A stretch of DNA of 64,000 nt from Jaapia argillacea MUCL 33604 (taxonomy: Eukaryota; Basidiomycota; Agaricomycetes; Jaapiales; Jaapiaceae): contig KL197735.1 in the NCBI GenBank assembly GCA_000697665.1, positions 167,499-231,498 on the forward strand, given 5' to 3'. A program made the position numbers and the translations under genes. The notes beneath the pieces are model-generated. The model was not told where the DNA came from. It saw only the letters and a list, made by a program, of their open reading frames with translations, and did not search any database. Below, piece after piece: positions 15,858-29,042 of this stretch (position 1 is its first letter; each line of letters starts with the position of its first letter).

Positions 15858-17610
15858 ATGTCGGACCACGTTCCAGGTGGAATCTCATACCAAGGTGATT
15901 CTCTGATCAACCTTCAGAGGATCCCACACCAGTTTCTCACTTTATAAGTTTTTCGAATATGAATAACTGTGCGCTCTTCATCTAGGATGGGAACCCTCCA
16001 AACCCAACACCCCCTTGGACCGCATTCCCCCTTCAATCTCCCCGTCGGAATTCCTAAAAACCTATATCCTACCTCGCAAACCCTGTATATTTACCTCCCA
16101 CCTCACAGACCCCTCATTCCACGCCTCTCGCAAATGGACTGATTTCGCCTACCTCGAAGCAGTGGCTGGACACGAAAATGTCAAAGTTGAGAGCTTGGAC
16201 CCAAAGTCGAAGGCTTTTGGTAGTGCGTTGCCCAGGACGGAGATGACGTTTGGCGAGTTTCTGAAAAAGATGATGGAAGAGAAGGCGGATGTAGAGGAGA
16301 TGTATTTGACGACCCAATACGAAGAACAAAACGCGTCCGAAGACTCCTCCACTCTCGAACCACCATTCTTATGCTCCCCGCCCTGTAACTCCCTAACGGC
16401 CGACCTCCCACTCCGTCCCCGTCTTCTCCACTCCTTGGTCCCCCACCAAATCAACCTCTGGCTTGGCCGTACATTCCCTCCCCCAAAACGACCAGAATCC
16501 GAAAGTGCAACTAGTAGATCCAGTGGATTACATCATGACCACCACGACAATCTCTACATACTCCTCTCCGGCCACAAACGATTCATCATATTTCCTCCTT
16601 CAGCCCACCCACACCTCCATTTCCACGGCACGGAAGACCTCCAAAACATTCATCCAAACGGCGTGATCTCCTACGAAGGCATGGGCGACATGGGCGGTGA
16701 CGCGCTGTGTGAGCGGGATAGGTGGGGATGGGAAGTCAAACGACTGGAACGCAAAGTCCATGAGTTAAAAAGGGCGAAAAAGGATGTAGTGCAAAAGGCG
16801 AGGCTTAAGGGGAAGTGGAAGGGTAGAGCGAAGAATCAAGCTTCTAGGGATCTGCGAATCGCTGAGGACGAATTAGCAGAAGCTGAGGATCGGCTGTTGG
16901 ATGCTATTGGGGAGGAAGGAAGTTTGGGAGGCGAAGTGGATGATTTCGACGCCTTGGGTGATCTATTGGATGTCGATGATCCTGATTTGGATGACATGGA
17001 TGCGGGTAGTATCGATGACCATGGATCAATGGTATCTGCCTCTTCAAAAGCATCAACTTCTCGCGATCGTAAGAAACCCCGTTCGCAAGGCACGGAACCT
17101 CCTTCCTTCTCTCGTATCCCAGCCTCTTACCTCCACCATAAACTCGGCCTGCTCCCAAAGTTCCATCCTATTCCTACCCTCCCAGAAGACATATCAGAAG
17201 GCGACGTCGATATACCGTCTCTTAACCCTATCGTCGTTCATCTTGAACCAGGCGAAATGTTATACCTCCCAGCAAGCTGGATACACGAAGTCTCGTCTTC
17301 CTCGTCCTCTTTCTCATCAAAAACATCCAGTTCCGGTTCATCGTCTTCCGCACCCAAGTCAAAAAGGTCGAGGGGAACGAAACCGGATGTTCATATGGCG
17401 CTCAATTATTGGTTCTATCCTCCTGATCGTCTAACCCCCGAAGATGGTCAGGATGGGGATGAGGATGGAGGGGTATATCAAATGCAACCGTTATTTGATT
17501 TCCTTGGGAAGGAGGTTAAAAGGGTGTGGAAAGAATCTGCTGGGAGTGCCGATGCGCAAGGGGAGGGTGTGGGGTCGAGTGAGGAGAGCAAGTGTCGGAA
17601 GTTCAAGTAA
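15858..17610 (+). CDS. JmjC / cupin_8-type Fe(II)-2OG oxygenase
   Basis: Two exons, 15858-15894 and 15986-17610 (intron 91 nt); 1662 nt, 553 aa. The upstream ATG at 15858 is chosen because the main frame has no ATG near its start and the first exon joins in phase (VPGGISYQ/GWEPSKP). The family is non-haem iron dioxygenases acting on protein or RNA side chains. Visible hallmarks are the H-x-D iron pair (LHHDHHD, H about 195 and D about 197), a 2-oxoglutarate-binding Lys region (GHKRFIIFPP) and the distal His (PASWIHEVSS, about 446). Between them lies a ~200-residue insertion: a Lys/Arg/Glu-rich helix (residues 240-305), then an Asp-rich stretch (DALGDLLDVDDPDLDDMD). The substrate cannot be told from sequence; JMJD7/TYW5-like proteins are the nearest idea. 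Confidence 0.75.
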
Positions 17611-17974: not shown

Positions 17975-20900
17975 TCACTGCTCGTACATCACCAGATAGA
18001 GTGGTAGGATGGCACGTTGGTCAAACACAACCAGACCGTCATATTCATTAGCAGGCCGACTATGCCTTTTAGGCTCCGTCGGTTGCCCACTTGATTGGCG
18101 GCCATTCCTCGGATAGGGTACGCCAGCCTGCAAGTTGTCGAAGCTGTTGCCAGAGGTTCGGCGCCATGATTGGGACCCCGATGCTGCTGACTTATCATGG
18201 GAGAATTCACATTCATCACTGTCAGACGCATTGAGTGGCAGGTCCCCTGAAATCAGACGAGAACAATGGCGAAAATCTTACCCATTATAACAGCCCTTTG
18301 GTGTATTATAGAAGGCGCATGGTCGTTTTGGCCTTCGACCCCCGTTGGCCGAATATGTGCGGACGGTCTCAGACAACCCCCTCGTGGAGCTGCTGATAGC
18401 GCGGGGGAAGGTGCCGTGATCACGGGGTGAGGACTGCTCACTTTGCGACGGCGCTCTGAGACGCGGTGTGACTTTAGGGCTCTCTACAGCAGACAGTTCT
18501 CCGACCTAGAAAATGAATTCATATCAGAGAAAATCAAGTCACCCGAATCCGCCGCACCGAGTCGTATCCTGGAGGGCTCTGTACAGCTGGCTCGTTTCTG
18601 TCAAGTGTGTAAACATTTCCTGCAGTCACTTCACATAATAGCAGGGGCTTCAATAAAATGGGATGAGACTGTTGTACAAGCCGATCGCAAAATCTTGGTG
18701 GAAGTCAGAGCTGGCGCTACCGTAAATGCGATCGGCCTACTTGGAAGCTGTTGAAGATGTATAGAAGCCTGACCCAAACCTGGAGTCCAAAGGTCATCTT
18801 TATTACTTTGGGTACATTCAAGAGGAGAGTACCTTCGCCAACTGGTGATTTCACCACTTGTATAGGCGGAAGATGTCATCATGCAGCAAATGCCGCACGT
18901 ATTTGAAGAGCAGATCCCGGTAGGTTGGGATTGTCCGAGTGTACATGCGCATCGAGGACCATACCAACGTCGATCCTGATTCCCGGAGGTTTGTCCCAGA
19001 GAGCGTGAAGAAATGATACCTTGACTGAGAATACAGTGAGCAGATATTACACACAGAGCACTCGCGGCTCACCGGAATGACTCATGCATATCTTGAACTT
19101 GCGATGAAGAGATGACCCGAAAGACTCTGGCTACAACTGGAGTTTTCGATTCACCTCCCCACGACTCTCCGAAAGATTCGGCCACTTAAAAGGGCCAGTT
19201 CAGTACCGGCAATAGAAATTCAAAGATAAATGCCCTCACCACGTGTAAACATTGGGTGGGTGTTGGGTACCTCCAATAGTATTGGAGCGGAGGCAACCGC
19301 AGCCCGAGCACATGGATCGGCACAGAAAGGGTCATCTAGAGTATCCCACATCCGACAATTTGTGCGGCAAAATAAACAAAAGTTGGCGCGAAACCTAGAG
19401 GGAACACCGTGAGCCACTAAAAGAAGACGAAATGAAGTCGACCAGCTCACATCTCATAGTGTTTGAAGCAGACCTCGAACGCTTGTGCGCCATCTCTTAT
19501 GACGGGTTGCTCACATCCTGATATTCCACACGTCCGATCCCATTCTGCGGCGCACGTGTCGCTACAAAAGTCGTACTTGATGTCCCCAAAAGAGTATTTC
19601 GGGCGAATGTGACAAATCTGTAGGGGAGTTCAGACAATCCGATAGATTAGTACAAAATTAACCCACCACACAGAACTCCTGCGCATGAGCTTGGATAGGA
19701 TTGGAAGATATGGGTGAAAGGTCCATTGTTCCGGGAGGCCAACGCTGCTCGGTGGAATTCTCCGTCGCAGGAAGTGCCGAAAGGTGTCGAGTAGGAGGGT
19801 ATGTGAGCAACCCAGAAGTTACTTCTGGTAGCGGGGGGCATTCATTTGTGGGAGTCGTTTCAGTTCTTTTGCAAATATCCTCCATTGCACGAAGAGCCAT
19901 GCCCGTGCTTGGCCTCTCTGCAGCGATCTCCGACCAGCAGTTCTCGATAAGGGACCACAAAGCATCAGATAGGGTTCGCTCCATACACTGAACAGGCGTT
20001 GGGCGTTTAGGCCTGAATCCTTCGTTGAGCTTTAGGATGAGTTGGCCCTCGCTGCAGCTCGGAAATGGCTGGTTGCGTGTATAAACCTGGAAATCGAATT
20101 ATTGAATCATCGGAAGCAGATGGGCTGTTTCGAAGGAAATGCTGACCTCCAAATATACACAACCTAAGGCATACACGTCACTCGCAAAGGTTCTTTTCAA
20201 AGGAAGGTTGAATTTATCTGGGAAATGGAGTTCGGGAGCCATCCACTGAGAGGAACCACCGTGGTTTGTGCTCGATGCCCCTTTGGTCACGTCAGCAATG
20301 GTTGCGAGGCCGAAGTCGGCGAGACGAGGGTGATGGTCATCATCGATGAGAATGTTGCTCTACGAGTGTTTCGTCAACACAAGTTTTGCAAATGTAGAGG
20401 GAGCACATACGCCTCGGAGATCACCATGTATCATGCCTGACTGGTGAAGATAATTCAGTCCCTCCGTAATCTCGAGCAGCTGTAATGGTTCCATCGAACT
20501 ATCGAAATGGATGAGGACCGAAAAGCATACCAGTTCGTCGATGTCAACTTGCATCGAAGCCGACGTTTCCAGAAACTTCAATATGTCACCATGTCGCATC
20601 CATGGCGATACCATACAATACATTGGAACGAAGGAGACAGCATCGATCCCAAGGAAAGGAAGGATATAACGATGTTTGAGTGTTTGCCACATCAGTGCTT
20701 CCTTGAACAGCATCTGGTTCCGAGTTCTTTCATCAGAATTCTTCTCAGCACGAAACGGAGACCCACTTTTTGGATGCTCAGCTGGTTCCTTCGGCTATCA
20801 TGGGAGACTCTCAGACGTTTGAGAGCGACTTCCGTTTCTCCGAGTCCCCCTTGAAAGACGTCCGCGAAAGAACCCCCTCGAGCAGAGTCCTTGCTCCGTA

Positions 20901-21967
20901 ACTGCACACCAAGCACGCATATAGAGGAGGGAAGCTGTTGACATCGCAACGACAAGTTGATCTGGAGTTTATGAACGTCTCGGCGAAATTTCTCGTTGAA
21001 GTTGAAGAAAAGATCAGATTTATCTGCGCCGCCGCCGGAGTGGCTGAGGCTCATTCGGTGCAACTTGCTCCAGTCGTCTAGAATCTATGACCAAGATAAT
21101 TAGAAAAATTTGCGGGTGGGAGAGTGTAACACGAGCCGTTTGTGCCAATATCATAAATGAATCCGCCTCATCGCCCTGCAGTGAGAACACTACCTCCTTT
21201 TGCTCGTCCGAGTCGAGAACCCTTCCGAATAAAGATACGATATCAGTTTCGTCCTTGACAATAGCCTCCCTTTCTTGCATCTTGTCACGGTGCGGGACAT
21301 CCTTTAAAACCTGGGGATATCTGAGGACTGGGTGGGCCATCTGCATGGTAATGGGCGCTTACGTGATATAAGGAGTCCCGAAACTTGGTGCTCTGGACTA
21401 AACTGTGAACAATGTCAAAGCCTGACATTTGACGCAAGCAATCTCCCAGTGTTGTCCAATGTCTGAACCACTCATGAGACGGGATAAGGATGATGAGGAA
21501 TGTAGCTTCTCTATACCCGTTCTTAGATAGATCATTATCGGGCAGAGATGTCTTCTGAATGGCTCGGATGATCAACGATGACAGATTCTAGAGGAAGGTC
21601 CCATGATGATAAGTAACCGAGGACGAAATAGCAATTAGACATACTTACCTTGTAGACTTGAGGCTCTGGCAAGTCAGACGGCCAGGAGGGAGAAATAAAG
21701 GGCATGGCGGTCAAGAGATCTCGGCGGAATCGGGCGAAACGTGTTATATCCAAGCGATCCCTTGGGTGAGAGAAGAGAACTGGATATAGCCCAAGATCCA
21801 CCGATGCCGAGCCCTCCGTTCGGTCGATGGACCCGTGGCCAAGGAATGAAACCTTAACGAAAGGCTTCTTGAGCGCCTAACTTTGGTACTATAATGGGGT
21901 CTTCTAGTGAACATATCAGCAGTGCGCTCGAAATAAAACCACTCCTCAAACACAAGATGCTCACCAT
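17975..21967 (-). CDS. Kinase - zinc module - PARP-like ART fusion with inserted CCCH finger
   Basis: My model has 17 exons: 21967-21965, 21876-21649, 21587-21363, 21310-21131, 21084-20767, 20713-20531, 20479-20411, 20359-20147, 20086-19667, 19617-19451, 19394-19240, 19184-19073, 19024-18833, 18779-18741, 18693-18558, 18505-18282, 18218-17975. They sum to 3108 nt, 1035 aa. Residues 1-212 have no known domain. Kinase ~280-545: G-loop GGSFADV, VALK Lys ~301, KEALMW Glu, HGDLRGSN (Asp ~399), DFG ~417, WMAPE, all key residues present. Cys-rich zinc modules ~610-720 (CVICHIRPKYS..FCSDTC; CLFCRTNC..FCADPC..ILLEVP). PARP-like ~730-1035: RRWYGP, RFGSGFYTSSTASK, PPGYDS, then a C-x8-C-x5-C-x3-H finger (942-964), then NEYDGLVVF. 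The exon 20086-19667 carries both kinase C-lobe and the first zinc Cys pair, so this is one gene. The ART triad is Y-Y-G, not H-Y-E. The 3-nt first exon is the weakest part. Confidence 0.8.
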
Positions 21968-22248: not shown

Positions 22249-23658
22249 TCAGTCGACAGTCAGAATGGGGGGAGTAGACCCAGCATTCCCGGGTGCCTCA
22301 GGTTGCACTGGCCCCGCTACAGCTTCTTGGAGGCTAGCCGGAATCTCGATTCTTCCAACTGGAGGTACAAACGGTCAGTCGTACACAAGGGCCAAAAGGA
22401 GGACACTGACCTCCATCCACGACGTTGATCCCTGGGCGCAGTTCATCCAAGTTGGACATAACTTTCAAGGGATTAGGTGCGTCCTAACCGACGAGTAAGA
22501 AACGAGATGGATGAGATACTCTTTGAAAAACAAGACCTCGCTGAACGGGAAAATATCTTGATCGTGCGCTATGGCAACTTCGAGGGAAGAATCCTAGGAT
22601 GAAACATCAAGACAGATCCCAAACAACCGATAATGCAGACTGACACGGAGTACGTATTCTAGGATTGGCGCGAGTAGGTTGATGCTCTGGGGAAAGTGTC
22701 GTAAGGCGATCGCAGGAGATCAGTGCTCCACTTACTTTGCAATCATCAGGAATCATCTCTATTATAACATCCTCGTCTCCGTATTCCTCAGGGAGAGATC
22801 GATCCATCATGCGGAATCCCCTGATAAAAAGACACTGGTTGTATACGGGTTCGATCGGCAATTCACCGGGAACTGGTGGCGAGATACGATACGGTCCACG
22901 GCGGCGATCGACAGAAGGGGTCCATGTCGTACTCGAGGTGATCACCGCTGTGCTGTTCTCATACCCAGTCATGTCAACCGTCCCATGAGACTCTTGATCC
23001 TCGCGAATGCTGGAGGAGGTTGTCACTTCCCATTCGACGGATTTATCGCACCCTGTCACAAAATAGAAGTCGGAGAGGTCGATGCCGAAACCGTTATCCT
23101 CGTTCGCCCATTCGAGCCATGACTTGTAGTGCTGAATCATGTACTGCTGGAATAGAGGGAGGAGGTTGGTGTCCTCTTGCAATACCTGGTTGGAAGTCGT
23201 CACTGAAGCAGTCTGTTGTCGAGTGACCGAGGTGGCGAGCTCATCAGGTCTTGGATGTGAGATCAGTAAAGAGGTGATGCCCTTCAAAAGCGGTCAACTC
23301 ACCTAATGTAAGAGTAAGATCCCGATGACTTTAGAACCCCTGGACCCAGGGAGGATTTGCTTGAAGTGACAAAGTCCAGGACTTGTTGTGGTGTAAGGCC
23401 ATCCGTTCCAGGAACCTCCAACTGCCGAAAGTCTGGGGGAGTGCCCCATCTCTGCGATGCGTGATCGGAGGGAAGCAACACGTTGAAAAGAGTATGAAAT
23501 CCTCCATATCTCAAATATCCAACATCACCAATCCGAACTGGGGGAGAAAGCGCGTCACCACCTGAGACTCGAGGAACATCTGGCTGCCAGAGCGCGTGCC
23601 CGTGGCGAAGGGTGGAGAGTTGGGAAGCATAAGTTTCTGAACTCGCAGTAGGATCCAT
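22249..23658 (-). CDS. Conserved agaricomycete hypothetical protein (383 aa)
   Basis: Six exons: 23658-23303, 23249-22736, 22686-22645, 22593-22537, 22483-22411, 22358-22249; total 1152 nt, in frame. The protein starts MDPTASSETYASQL, then G-H-A-L-W-x-P-D and VRIGDVGYLRYGGF, NVLLPSDHASQRWG, later SWLEWAN and DFYFVTGCDKSVEWEV. This order (GYALWEP, VGDVGF.., LVTGCDKT) is shared by a large family of agaricomycete proteins without known function, as I recall it. No catalytic motif is visible. A 42-nt exon (INLLAPILEYVLR) and the exon after it (EVAIAHDQD) only fit once four 49-53 nt introns are removed. The gene ends 281 bp upstream of the start of the kinase-ART gene, same strand. Confidence 0.7.
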
Positions 23659-24232: not shown

Positions 24233-27200
24233 TTATCGAAACATGCATAGTTGTCTGTTTCGATTTCCAGGACACTCAAATCCATCTCAACCAGCTTGAA
24301 CACATACTGCACATCTTCTTTGTCTCCCAGGTGGTCCATCTCTTATTGAAGTCTCACGTCGTCGATCCTGGACTATATTCTCCGGTTTCCACACAATAAA
24401 TGTTGGATCAAAAACCTGTGGTTGGAATTCTGATTCTATGACAGGAAAACTGGAGGCAACACTTGGCCCTGCTATTGGTTGCATAATAGAGAAAGTTTCT
24501 GATTGGTTTTCAGGGAGAGATGGGCCAAACATGTCAATTCTCATAGGTGATTGACTCAAAGATCTGTCCACTGGTAGCTCAATATCTGCTTGCATATCCA
24601 CATCAGCTTCAAGTATAGCAATAACAGCAGCTTCTGGATTTATTTCCTCAATTTCTATATCTTGACCAAGGGGAGTGGTAGGCATAGCATTTACAGGTGG
24701 TTTGGATGAGGGGATGGAAATGTACTGTGTTTCAGATTCTGTTGCAGAAATTCCTGGCTGAAGTCGATGAGCAGCATTTAATACAGTTGACTGGTGGTTC
24801 TTAGATCAGATTCATTTCTCATGTGGGGCTCGTTGCTCATGGCTAGCAACTAGAGTAACTTGGCGAGCCTGAGCCTCTTTATACTTCTTGTATTGTGCAG
24901 ATAGCTGCTCTTCTAACTTGTAGAATATAGTCTGGCCATTTGCCTTTCCTGACCACCATGCAGCCATTTCTGCAAAATTGGGACCTGAAGCAGATGATGC
25001 TGCCCATTCTCCACCAGGAGATACACTTTGATTAAAAAGCTCAAACTCTTGCTTTGTATGGACTGGAGTCACAGCATATCTTGTTTTCTGAGCAGCAGCC
25101 AGATATGCATAGAGACTACCATGAGTTGTCTTCAAGGCTGATAGATGAAGCTTCATAGGATAGACATGTGTAAATGGTAAGGACTGTTCTGATATAGCTG
25201 CTTCTGTAAGCACAGCAGGATTCTCAAAGTTACTATCATTACGGATTTGTTCTGAAATACTAGCAATACCAAAGGCCTCATGAGTTGTAGCAAAACTGAG
25301 GGGGTCAGTGTCCTGGCAAATCCGTCCCATTGGAGGATTAGTTGACCATGGAATATCAGCTCTAAGAACTTGAACTTTATGGTCAAGCCACTGATCATAA
25401 TGTCCTTGATATTCCTTTCCTGTTTTATGTCGCTGGCCAGCATCAAGATTATGTCGATGCCGAAAGTCTGCCATCCAACAATCTGCAAGTTCAACAGAGG
25501 CATTCAAAGAGGCAAAATTTCAACGAATTGGATTATGTACTGCACCCTCCACAGAGTTTGTTCCACGAATTGTGTGGTACAGAGTTAAACCATTTTCATC
25601 ATATCCAATAACAGTATACAAACTAATGCCAACAGGATCAGATACCCAACCTTTCTTGACATCATGAAGAACTGCTCTGCTTTTTTTCCAAGACTCCTCA
25701 TTAAAAAGTGGCTGTCCTGTGGCTGAACACTTTATATGTCCCCAACACTCAAAGAATTCATCTAGAATCTTATACAAGAGATCAGCAGCAGGAACATATC
25801 GACGGACCTGCTGCCAGAGCCAACGGGGAGAGGACTTGTGAACTGTATCCCATTTCTTGCCCTTTTTAGTTAGATAAGCCTCAACTTTTGCTCTGTCATT
25901 TTTATCTGGAACTAGCATTGTATCACTCAATGCAATACCAAATTCATGGTTCAGAGAATGTTTACGTGAGATGGTATGTATCACTTTATCCATCTCATGA
26001 AACATGTCCACTAATATTCCTGAAGGACGTGATGGGGAATCTTCTGTTAAAGATGGCTGGACATATCTATCTTCATTATCCAGTAATCCACTAGTTCCTT
26101 GTGTAGTTGGTGTTTTAGTCTTGCTATTCTCAGCAGCATTGTGCTCACTACTAACCACATGGCCATTATTATCATCATTACTACCTTCATCATAACTACT
26201 ACCTTCATCATCCTCACTCTCTGAGTTTGGATCAGGACCAGGTGTCTGCTTTTCCATACAATGACAGTCCTGTGGTGGTTGAATAAGGACCACATCAGAT
26301 ATCTCTGGTGGTAGCATAGAGGATGAAGCCACTGAAATGGCTTCTGGTTTCAATGGTGCTCGTGTTCGCAGAGTTGATAATGTTACCAAAGCCTGGAAGG
26401 ATGTTTTGCCCTCTTGAAGTGACTCTAATGTCTGTTTATGATAGGCTAGCATACATTTTGGAGCAAGAACCTCAGTAATTTCAACTACAGCTCTTGTACG
26501 GGTAGTTGATACATTAATATTGACAGAGATTTCTCTATCAGAAGTCTTTCGAGTTATATTGAATTGCTGTGGCTGCTCAACCAACCTTCCTCTTGCAACT
26601 TCTTGTCTCTGTAAATATAGGCTAACCTCCTGTCCAATAGGTCCTGCAGACTCTAATGGCTTTCCATAAGATGTCTCAGCTTTGAGAGCCTCCCAAACCT
26701 TCAGAGCAACCCAGGCATCAAGAGCTGCATAATGAATCTGCTCTGTAGAAAGTTGACGTGCTGCCCATTCACTTATTCTTGTATCCTTAGATAAATTTTG
26801 CTGAAGAGTTGCTGCAACTATTGCTGCAAGAGATGCAGTACCTTTTGGAATCACATTCTTTCGCCTAGCCAGTATACCTAACTCAATGATTCCCCGTGAC
26901 ATTTTTGGCTCCTTTGCAGGCAGTTTATATTCAGGAAAGTCACGTGAAAGCTTTGATAGATCTCCACCAACATTTCTGCCAATTTTCATAACTTGTGAAG
27001 TTGTCAAAAGTGTAATCAGAGATCTGGGAAGATGCCGCAAATTGCATACCCGAAGCAAGTAAACAGTATTTGGAAAGGCAAGTTGAATAAGTGCAGTTCG
27101 CCTTGGGCCTCCTGACGATGGATCAGTACTGAACTCCCACTCCATATCAAATCCCAAGTAGACTCTAGCAGTGTCATCATCTAGCTGCTGAAGGATAAAC

Positions 27201-29042
27201 CCACAAGCAGTCTGGATTTCTTCCTCATTGGAACAAACATGAACTATAACAGTGTCTGGAAGCAACAACTGAGGGAGCTCAGAAAACTCATCTATCTGTA
27301 CAGGTTTAACACCTTCTGCTAATGATGGGATGCATTGCATAAATGTTGCAGAATCACTAGCTACATTATCTGAAAATCCAATAACTGGCTGACAAAGTCC
27401 ATGATCATCAATACTCCTCACCATGGCCATAAGGCTTCCTTTTATATTGACTAAAGCCCTGGTTGAAAGGAGTAATTGAATACAAATTTGCTCAAATTCA
27501 TTTACAGCTGTAAATAGCACTGGAAAAGGTGTTGTGCCTTCAAGCATTGAGATATACTTTGGCACTTTGAAAGATGTATCCCATTTAAGCACATAAGCAC
27601 TTAGTGAAGACATATACTGGTCCAAGACTGGGCGGATATGCTCCATGTAGTCCATGTAGATACTATTTAAATACCATCAGGAAGGGTAAAATCCTGCATA
27701 TCCATCACTGTCATCAAAAGCTGAGAATGGAGCATATGACTTTCGCTCATCAACATTATCTCCTTGCTCTTCACGATGTTTAACAACATCCTGATCATAT
27801 TTGATAGCATACAAATAACTAAGCTCCCGTATATCATGCTCTCGAACATGTAATTCACGAAGGATCTGTGACCAAGCATTTGAGCTAACACGATGAGCCA
27901 TCCCAGCATGAACTAATGTCATCAGAGTCTTGTCAATTCCACTCCTATGGGTCAGAAAGGCAGGAAATTCTGAAGCTAGGCCCATATCAAGTTGTTGAAG
28001 TATTGATGGATCATATAGGTTTACTGATTTGCCACATCCTCCTTTTGAGGACTGGCAGTAAAATCGTTGAGTCATAACATAATAAACCCTATCAAGAGAT
28101 ACAACACGTCTAGCAACTGGATTGTTATTCCAGCCTTTACATGCAAGAGGATATTTCTTGTTGTTTTTGTTGCGACATTCTGGATTCTGACATGTGAGGG
28201 GTCTAGAATCCAAAAGATGTGGGAGCCACACAAAAATTGAGGGCCGATAGAGCAGGTTTGGGATGATACCATCAGGCAATGTAACTGCCTTCCTCATTGC
28301 AAAATAAGAATCAGGAGGATGGATCCAAAATGAGCCCTCCTGGTAGCATTTTGGCTTAGTATAACTCTGAATATCTCGAATCAATTGATCTTTGATGGTT
28401 GTGAGATATGTGCTCACATAACCCCTTAAGGGAGCATTATTCTCTTGCTGGGCATGTTGCTGACCAGAGAGGTGATTCTCATTGTTGTCATCAGGGACAA
28501 CATCATTCTCATCATCAAAATCACTTTCATCAGGATCATAACCTGTTTCTGCTAGGAAAAGGGCATTAGAAGAATCAAATGTGAATCAAAACTGCTTACC
28601 ATCATCATCCTCAACGTCTATAAATTGTTCAGAATTTTCACAGATTTTAACAAATTTTTACTCACCAGTGGTTGACTTTTGTTTTCCCATACTGCCAGAT
28701 GGCATAGGAGCCCCCAACACTTTAGGAACACAGTTTGCAGATTTCCGTGGGTCTACTCAAAAAATATAAGCATTTGTTACCCAGTTGATTTTCAAAATAC
28801 TCACAAAAGATTGGAAAAAGATCATGTTGTGGTCCTGAGAAAAGTGGGTCTCTTTCTGAACAGAAAACCTTCAATTCAAGTGGAAGAATATATAGAGACT
28901 TTAAACACATACCTCAAGCTGATGTGGAACTCTTCATATCCTTCTCTTCTTCCCTCTGTCTTTTTCGCCCTGCTCCCTCTCTGAAACCTCTAGCCTGATG
29001 ACCAGGCTGATTCTTAGACCCTGAGGGCCTACCTGTCTGCAT
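24233..29042 (-). pseudogene. Transposase with Zn module and RNase D/WRN-like exonuclease (stops inside)
   Basis: The reading frame starts at ATG 29042 (MQTGRPSGSK.., AT-hook-like), passes several short exons with 45-50 nt introns (28.6-28.9 kb), and is then continuous from about 28560 to the TAA at 24233 apart from in-frame TGA codons at 27677, 25520, 24812, 24806 and 24287 (a sixth at 28914). Parts in order: Cys-rich N-terminal module (C-x4-C..C, 28.4-27.7 kb; DUF6729-like in my memory); DDE-type core (LKWDTSFKVPKYI, later GFSDNVASD); 3'-5' exonuclease (VYLGFDMEWEF, ALIQLAFP, KIGRNVGGDLSKL, HYAALDAWVALKVW); a transposase C-terminal part (ADFRHRHNLDAG); a zinc-knuckle end (CAVCVQAG..CPGN). 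DNA transposition by cut-and-paste is inferred. As written it cannot make a full-length protein. Confidence 0.72.

Follow-up and report, generated by a model that had tools for sequence, protein, structure and literature searches.

What would a single protein do that joins a kinase to a PARP-like ADP-ribosyltransferase (ART) domain and carries a CCCH zinc finger inside that domain? The question is raised by a minus-strand gene, here called KP1, in a 64,000-nucleotide stretch of the Jaapia argillacea MUCL 33604 genome (the window; contig KL197735.1, below C27, positions 167499-231498), for which an original prediction made from the sequence had proposed this architecture. A second copy of the gene (KP2) was found elsewhere in the genome, and comparison of the two with free-standing ART genes showed that both kinase-linked copies depart from the ART catalytic triad and have an enlarged loop, holding one or two CCCH fingers, ahead of the strand with the former catalytic Glu. 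We tentatively propose, and would give this not quite an even chance of being right, that KP1 is a TKL/FslK kinase attached to a zinc-rich pseudo-ART scaffold that would present RNA-binding finger(s), in the manner of ZAP and with a kinase as its output.

The genome searched comprised 43.7 Mb in 95 contigs; its short introns, its ART family and its many related kinases are in keeping with an agaricomycete. KP1 was spliced by hand on the minus strand between 22.0 and 17.9 kb and a paralogue-guided model was made afterwards; automatic splice prediction without homology was dropped, having over-split KP1 into 36 exons. From the ATG at 21705, the splice model has 16 coding exons and encodes 974 amino acids (aa) with no internal stop, the least certain intron being 21132-21078. 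KP2 was identified on contig C56 by a genome search with the C-terminal half of KP1 (L026 6393-2335; 17 exons, 1071 aa, no internal stop), and was hand-spliced with KP1 as the guide, so that the agreement of introns between the models is not fully independent. The two proteins align end to end with the same domain order, and 592 of 961 aligned residues are identical. Thirteen of the 15 KP1 introns lie at the same alignment column and in the same phase in KP2; intron 4, next to a gap in the alignment, is offset by one codon, and intron 3 differs both in column (by two) and in phase, so that its precise site is uncertain in one or other copy. When intron sequences were compared, the 15 pairs scored better on average than 210 mismatched pairs (0.08 versus -0.09, standard deviation 0.08), and for 9 of the 15 no more than 5% of mismatched pairs scored as high, the share being 7-66% for the other 6.

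The start of the gene had originally been placed at 21967, with 17 exons and 1036 codons. Hand splicing from that position does give 17 exons without an internal stop, but 1033 codons including the stop. The start itself is probably wrong: KP2 has nothing that clearly corresponds to the 58 residues at the beginning of the longer model, and the alignment, which pairs the N-terminal start MSFVASPWPSDLPEP with MPFISPSWPSDLPEP, begins at ATG 21705. This ATG, 262 bases further along, is therefore probably the natural start. The proposal of a single gene encoding one chain was upheld, as all the motifs quoted for it are present and KP2 has the same domain order. Two adjacent genes were considered and rejected, since exon 20086-19667 and its KP2 counterpart are both open and the linker can be aligned between the copies. 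That exon does include the kinase C-lobe, as predicted, but it reaches only the first Cys of CVIC and not the first zinc Cys pair, the second Cys being encoded by the exon that follows. A decaying pseudogene was also rejected, there being no internal stop in either model and a ratio of nonsynonymous to synonymous substitution (dN/dS) well below 1.

The evidence on the ART comes from fold matches and from the catalytic positions. In the 17-exon model, KP1 matches the Pfam PARP family (PF00644) with E 5e-6 and 26.5 bits against a cut-off of 26.7, which agrees with the predicted PARP-like core at the level of the fold, though 0.2 bits under the cut-off; the two free-standing relatives scanned both matched, with 50.5 and 54.1 bits. 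A profile built from eight sequences, KP1 and KP2 among them, matches PARP4 (1.3e-11), PARP3 and tankyrases in the PDB, and alignment of a free-standing relative with tankyrase-1 places GAGIY on GAGIY and the YAEYVIY strand on YDELVVY. In a family alignment of six free-standing ART genes with KP1 and KP2 (A1), the six read RRWHG, GxY and DE before the last VVY or IVY, whereas KP1 reads RRWYG, GFY and DG, and KP2 reads RRWYG, GFS and DS; four Cys between the His and Tyr motifs are invariant in all eight sequences. The catalytic triad H-Y-E is thus Y-Y-G in KP1 and Y-S-S in KP2. In KP1 the Tyr at the triad-His position is in RRWYG 715 (bases 18972-18958), the triad Tyr is retained in GFYTSS 765 (bases 18769-18752), and PPGYDS is at 814.

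H-Y-E is kept in 7/7 free-standing main-type ART models on C30 and C16 (spliced models, with many of the motifs also present in raw frames; in C30e the triad was matched by eye as LLFHG, GIY and YEETVVY). This count covers modelled main-type genes only; it leaves out at least three weaker ART matches (C30:427.5-427.8 kb, C8:1243.5 kb, C16:84.6 kb), two divergent plus-strand models, and the C2 and C19 PARP loci. In the three stretches holding free-standing ART genes, no kinase was matched at E 0.01, the look-up for C30d covering only approximately 0.7 kb upstream of the model. As the modelled free-standing genes keep H-Y-E and no kinase match lies in these stretches, loss of the His and Glu accompanies kinase fusion in 2/2 copies. 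The ART is probably catalytically dead, and the ADP-ribosylation that had been attributed to the protein alongside its kinase is not expected, because the catalytic His and Glu are lost in both copies and the Tyr is also lost in KP2. It is very improbable that residues at shifted positions still let KP1 transfer ADP-ribose, kinase and ADP-ribosylation then acting on shared targets: KP1 does retain GFYTSS and PPGYDS of the fold, and mono-ARTs lacking the Glu exist among human PARPs, but His and Glu are replaced in both copies and Tyr in one. In ZAP, moreover, departure from H-Y-E goes with loss of activity, as described in passages of PMC8568172.

The free-standing Cys-rich ART genes with intact H-Y-E form groups at C30:410.5-427.8 kb and C16:680.6-684.6 kb, and two divergent ART-like models (TFHSSQ..GIYSYQ) lie beside these groups on the opposite strand. 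The free-standing genes of these groups (RRWHGT..GIYTSS..YDELVVY) share with KP1 and KP2 a homologous ART core and Cys-rich stretches, including ones that precede the domain. The two Cys-rich modules predicted for KP1 were found with the motifs quoted for them, and most of their Cys are kept in KP2. The architecture had been called unfamiliar; this applies to three features that are unusual, namely the attached kinase, the dead triad and the insertion in the loop, but the combination of Cys-rich modules with an ART is not new in this genome. An exon-by-exon genome search with PF00644 gave three other places, and neither KP1 nor KP2. Two other PARP-domain loci (C2:1806.0 kb and C19:504.2 kb, 54 bits each) had no tblastn match to the two kinase-linked ARTs.

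The second departure from the free-standing genes is the length of the loop between GYDS and the Glu strand, which we take to be the acceptor-side loop of ARTs. This distance is 133 residues in KP1 and 230 in KP2, and 10-14 residues, without a CCCH, in 7/7 free-standing models. The CCCH pattern predicted between PPGYDS and YDGLVVF does arise across intron 18281-18219 when that intron is removed. The 133-residue stretch holds only 3 Cys and 3 His, and the pattern appeared in 0/20,000 residue shuffles. Full C-x8-C-x5-C-x3-H spacing is found in one finger in KP1 and in two in KP2, within the same ART loop. In KP2 a 42-aa CCCH unit (VRTYSANGG..) occurs twice (L026 ~2870-2530), with a run of short GGSFKAI-type repeats ahead of it, and in both fingers an intron interrupts the sequence at the same point, following a GG dinucleotide; the one extra intron of KP2 can be attributed to the presence of two such units, each with an intron inside the finger. 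Pfam matched KP1 to zf-CCCH_9 (E 1e-4) and zf-CCCH_4 (E 8e-4), both under their cut-offs, and KP2 to zf-CCCH_9 (27.3 bits) and zf-CCCH (26.6 bits), over the cut-offs and in two stretches each. Of the Pfam families expected by the original prediction, PK_Tyr_Ser-Thr was recovered in KP1 and PARP narrowly fell short, while zf-CCCH itself (PF00642, the main CCCH family) was absent from matches up to E 1. Profile matches indicate a resemblance of the finger to the CCCH type of KIAA1064.

In the genome search with the C-terminal half of KP1, the strongest finger matches beyond the two copies are on C2 and C11 (E 0.004 and 0.05), and are the first fingers of paired-CCCH proteins (C2:42350 and C11:695438-702400). 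Downstream of the C11 finger gene is a sequence that by eye is SF1 helicase-like with NFX1-type Cys repeats. Vertebrate ZNFX1 is described as a sensor of double-stranded RNA, and the C11 neighbour may be taken as a lead toward RNA rather than proof. Dense groups of CCCH matches were also seen at C26:366-374 kb and C7:459-473 kb.

Under the proposed reading, the ART of the fusion would have lost catalysis and its loop before the former catalytic Glu would have been enlarged to carry the CCCH finger(s), which would bind an RNA. The zinc-rich pseudo-ART would position or oligomerise the protein, or gate the finger, and the output would be phosphorylation by the attached kinase, that is, ZAP/PARP13-like sensing with a kinase output in the manner of PKR. 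The sequence itself shows a gene model backed by KP2, the architecture, the altered triad residues, the second finger of KP2 and constraint on all modules; from these we infer the catalytic death of the ART, the RNA binding, the regulation of the kinase and the role in sensing or defence.

The kinase half was found as predicted, with VALK, the Glu, HGD, DFG and APE. PF07714 (PK_Tyr_Ser-Thr) matches KP1 with E 8e-36 and KP2 with E 9e-38, and the catalytic Lys, Glu, HGD Asp, DFG and APE are present in both copies, HGD replacing HRD (in KP1, GGSFADV 221, VALK 237, EALMW 262, HGDLRGSN 336, DFG 356 and APE 382). The genome has at least 170 matches to related kinases (137 of 510 candidates scored), and the N-terminal module has 6 matches at E <= 0.001 outside KP1 and KP2 (4 at C27:325-367 kb and 1 each on C12 and C10). 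One kinase, on C91, can be aligned to KP1 over the N-terminus and the kinase domain, and none of the ART or CCCH motifs searched for was present on its strand in the 4.6 kb examined. On domain type and family size, the KP1 kinase appears to be of the TKL/FslK type, from a family expanded in mushroom fungi; it is like these kinases in belonging to a large family in this genome with KP1-like motifs and in sharing part of its N-terminal module. Passages of PMC3937382 report expansion of FslK kinases in Agaricomycetes and state that 16/241 FslK members carry another domain; a kinase-ART fusion may be among those 16.

In order to compare constraint between the modules, NG86 dN/dS was calculated between KP1 and KP2 over 961 aligned codons, excluding gapped columns, with 500 codon bootstraps. 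The ratio was 0.25 overall, 0.25 for the N-terminus, 0.20 for the kinase, 0.46 for the linker (bootstrap range 0.28-0.75), 0.14 for the zinc modules, 0.33 for the ART core, 0.25 for the insert and 0.08 for the last ART strands, which are the most conserved part compared (92% over 26 codons). A value of 1 was reached by 1/500 bootstraps for the linker and by 0/500 for all other parts. YN00 gave 0.25 overall, 0.24 for the kinase, 0.23 for the zinc modules and 0.30 for the ART core. Values this low (0.25 overall, 0.33 in the ART core) show the C-terminal half to be under constraint, and the pseudo-ART looks maintained and not decaying.

Two other explanations of a maintained C-terminal half were weighed against these values. 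Integrated decoys have been proposed for some plant immune receptors, and KP1 could similarly be a bait, in which a dead copy of a free-standing ART, or of a CCCH target, is joined to a kinase that would fire on contact with a parasite or foreign factor, RNA binding being secondary. We regard this as somewhat unlikely. It agrees with the dead triad beside intact modelled relatives, with an ART core among the less constrained modules (0.33) and with a large kinase family in which one close member, on C91, has no ART end; wheat kinase fusion proteins that give disease resistance, as reported in PMC10260399 and PMC10260397, also speak for it. The zinc modules (0.14) and last ART strands (0.08), however, are strongly conserved and not fast-evolving. 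These same conserved parts would suit a C-terminal half that only localises or dimerises the kinase through its zinc modules, with the CCCH making protein contacts and no RNA involved, and the single KP1 finger below the Pfam cut-offs points the same way. We think such a pure scaffold unlikely, as the two full-spacing fingers of KP2 suggest selection on finger number and the best C11 finger match sits in a helicase-like gene.

Several observations count against the proposed RNA-sensing kinase. KP1 has a single finger, under all Pfam cut-offs, and one CCCH finger on its own may be a poor RNA binder or may make contacts with proteins; the kinase could also act regardless of the C-terminus. No Pfam PARP match was found in the ART core of KP2, and for this reason its fold may be degraded. 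The His column rests on the family alignment, with the tankyrase HG falling on RRWHG only in sub-threshold stretches. The dN/dS values are rough because dS is approximately 1, and with YN00 the N-terminus came out higher, at 0.49, and the linker, insert and finger yielded no value. The helicase lead comprises five pieces; of the four lying downstream, three had no Pfam match and the fourth matched ZNFX1 below the cut-off (E 0.002).

Searches of the open-licence PMC literature listed no paper with a kinase-PARP-CCCH protein in its title or abstract start. The parts are of known kinds, and their combination did not surface in this partial literature, fungal proteomes being outside its scope. PKR resembles KP1 in having a kinase and a nucleic-acid-binding module in one chain, and is unlike it in both the RNA module and the kinase family; nothing here links KP1 to translation control. 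A close counterpart is ZAP/PARP13, which, as passages of PMC8568172 describe, also combines CCCH finger(s) and a PARP-type domain with a non-canonical triad in one chain, with Tyr at the His position (Y-Y-V in ZAP, at Y787/Y819/V876), and whose PARP domain is inactive yet needed for CpG-specific restriction. The same passages give ZAP four N-terminal fingers, a fifth finger, two WWE domains and no kinase, and state that all human PARPs except ZAP and PARP9 can transfer ADP-ribose. KP1 and KP2 differ from ZAP in carrying the finger within the ART, itself a member of a Cys-rich fungal family, and the resemblance is by analogy, without direct sequence comparison. No WWE domain was found in Pfam scans of KP1 and KP2 up to E 1, and the ZAP layout of an N-terminal CCCH array with WWE is not theirs. 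PARP7 and PARP12 likewise combine a CCCH-type finger with a PARP domain (in passages of PMC4245714) and differ from KP1 in having the finger outside the ART, a WWE domain and no kinase. When prokaryotic or viral relatives of the ART family were sought, 0/13 ART-pattern stretches in viral contigs and 0/62 in genome contigs were confirmed, and phage records gave one weak ART match (44% of the query, 37% identity); as these collections are not intended for fungi, the result does not bear on spread among mushrooms.

The simplest history, the order and age of which we infer, would be fusion of an ART cassette to a kinase, followed by duplication and gain or loss of a finger. Segmental duplication was rejected on the flanks seen, which differ (a kinase fragment beside KP2, a Cupin_8 gene beside KP1), no systematic flank comparison having been made. 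The kinase fragment presumably resembles VPS15.

Table 1. Features of KP1, in window positions
Feature	Position	Strand	Basis
KP1 gene	17975..21705	-	splice model, paralogue KP2, shared intron places and phases
KP1 exons 1-8	21705-21649, 21587-21363, 21310-21133, 21077-20767, 20713-20531, 20479-20411, 20359-20147, 20086-19667	-	
KP1 exons 9-16	19617-19451, 19394-19240, 19184-19073, 19024-18833, 18779-18741, 18693-18558, 18505-18282, 18218-17975	-	
5' extension of the original prediction (3-base exon 21967-21965 plus 21876-21706), probably 5' untranslated region	21706..21967	-	little KP2 similarity upstream of ATG 21705
N-terminal module, aa 1-211	20905..21705	-	parts common to other kinases of the genome
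Protein kinase domain, ~aa 221-477	19892..20874	-	Pfam PF07714 and motif positions
Linker, aa 478-548	19679..19891	-	one open exon joining kinase and zinc modules; KP2 exon also open
Two Cys-rich zinc-type modules, aa 549-660	19183..19678	-	most Cys kept in KP2; like stretches in free-standing ART genes
Pseudo-ART core, aa 661-823	18494..19182	-	Pfam PARP, alignment A1, family profile matches
Insert in ART loop before catalytic-Glu strand, aa 824-950	18050..18493	-	GYDS-to-YDG distance
CCCH finger C-x8-C-x5-C-x3-H, aa 882-901, split by intron 18281-18219	18197..18319	-	pattern, Pfam, spliced model
Last ART strands, aa 951-974	17978..18049	-	Gly at catalytic-Glu position, YDGLVVF, bases 18043-18023

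Around KP1, the Cupin_8 / JmjC-like gene at window 15967-17607 (plus strand) is convergent with it, the stops lying approximately 365 bases apart. Upstream on the same strand, a 228-aa open frame (window 22610-23293, minus strand) has no Pfam match up to E 0.01 and may be part of another spliced gene. Farther upstream (window 25523-28585, minus strand) are adjacent open reading frames with a 3'-5' exonuclease domain (PF01612) and DUF6729 (PF20499). Because the DUF6729 part has relatives on C72 (50%), C13 (85% over 53 aa), C1 and C4, these frames may be a mobile element.

Little is understood, to our knowledge, about the innate sensing of RNA in mushroom fungi. It is a doubtful though conceivable extension of the proposed reading that these fungi evolved a ZAP-like RNA sensor with a built-in kinase, in which CCCH finger(s) would first have occupied the loop before the catalytic Glu, the ART would afterwards have become inactive, and RNA capture by the pseudo-ART would switch the kinase on for antiviral or anti-transposon signalling. 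KP1 and KP2 indicate that an inserted segment of >100 residues with a further zinc module can be accommodated in the loop of an ART. They would represent an apparently independent case of a CCCH finger combined with a dead PARP, as in ZAP, where the His is likewise changed to Tyr, and a pseudo-PARP kinase with an inserted CCCH, present in two copies with different finger numbers, is a directly testable candidate.

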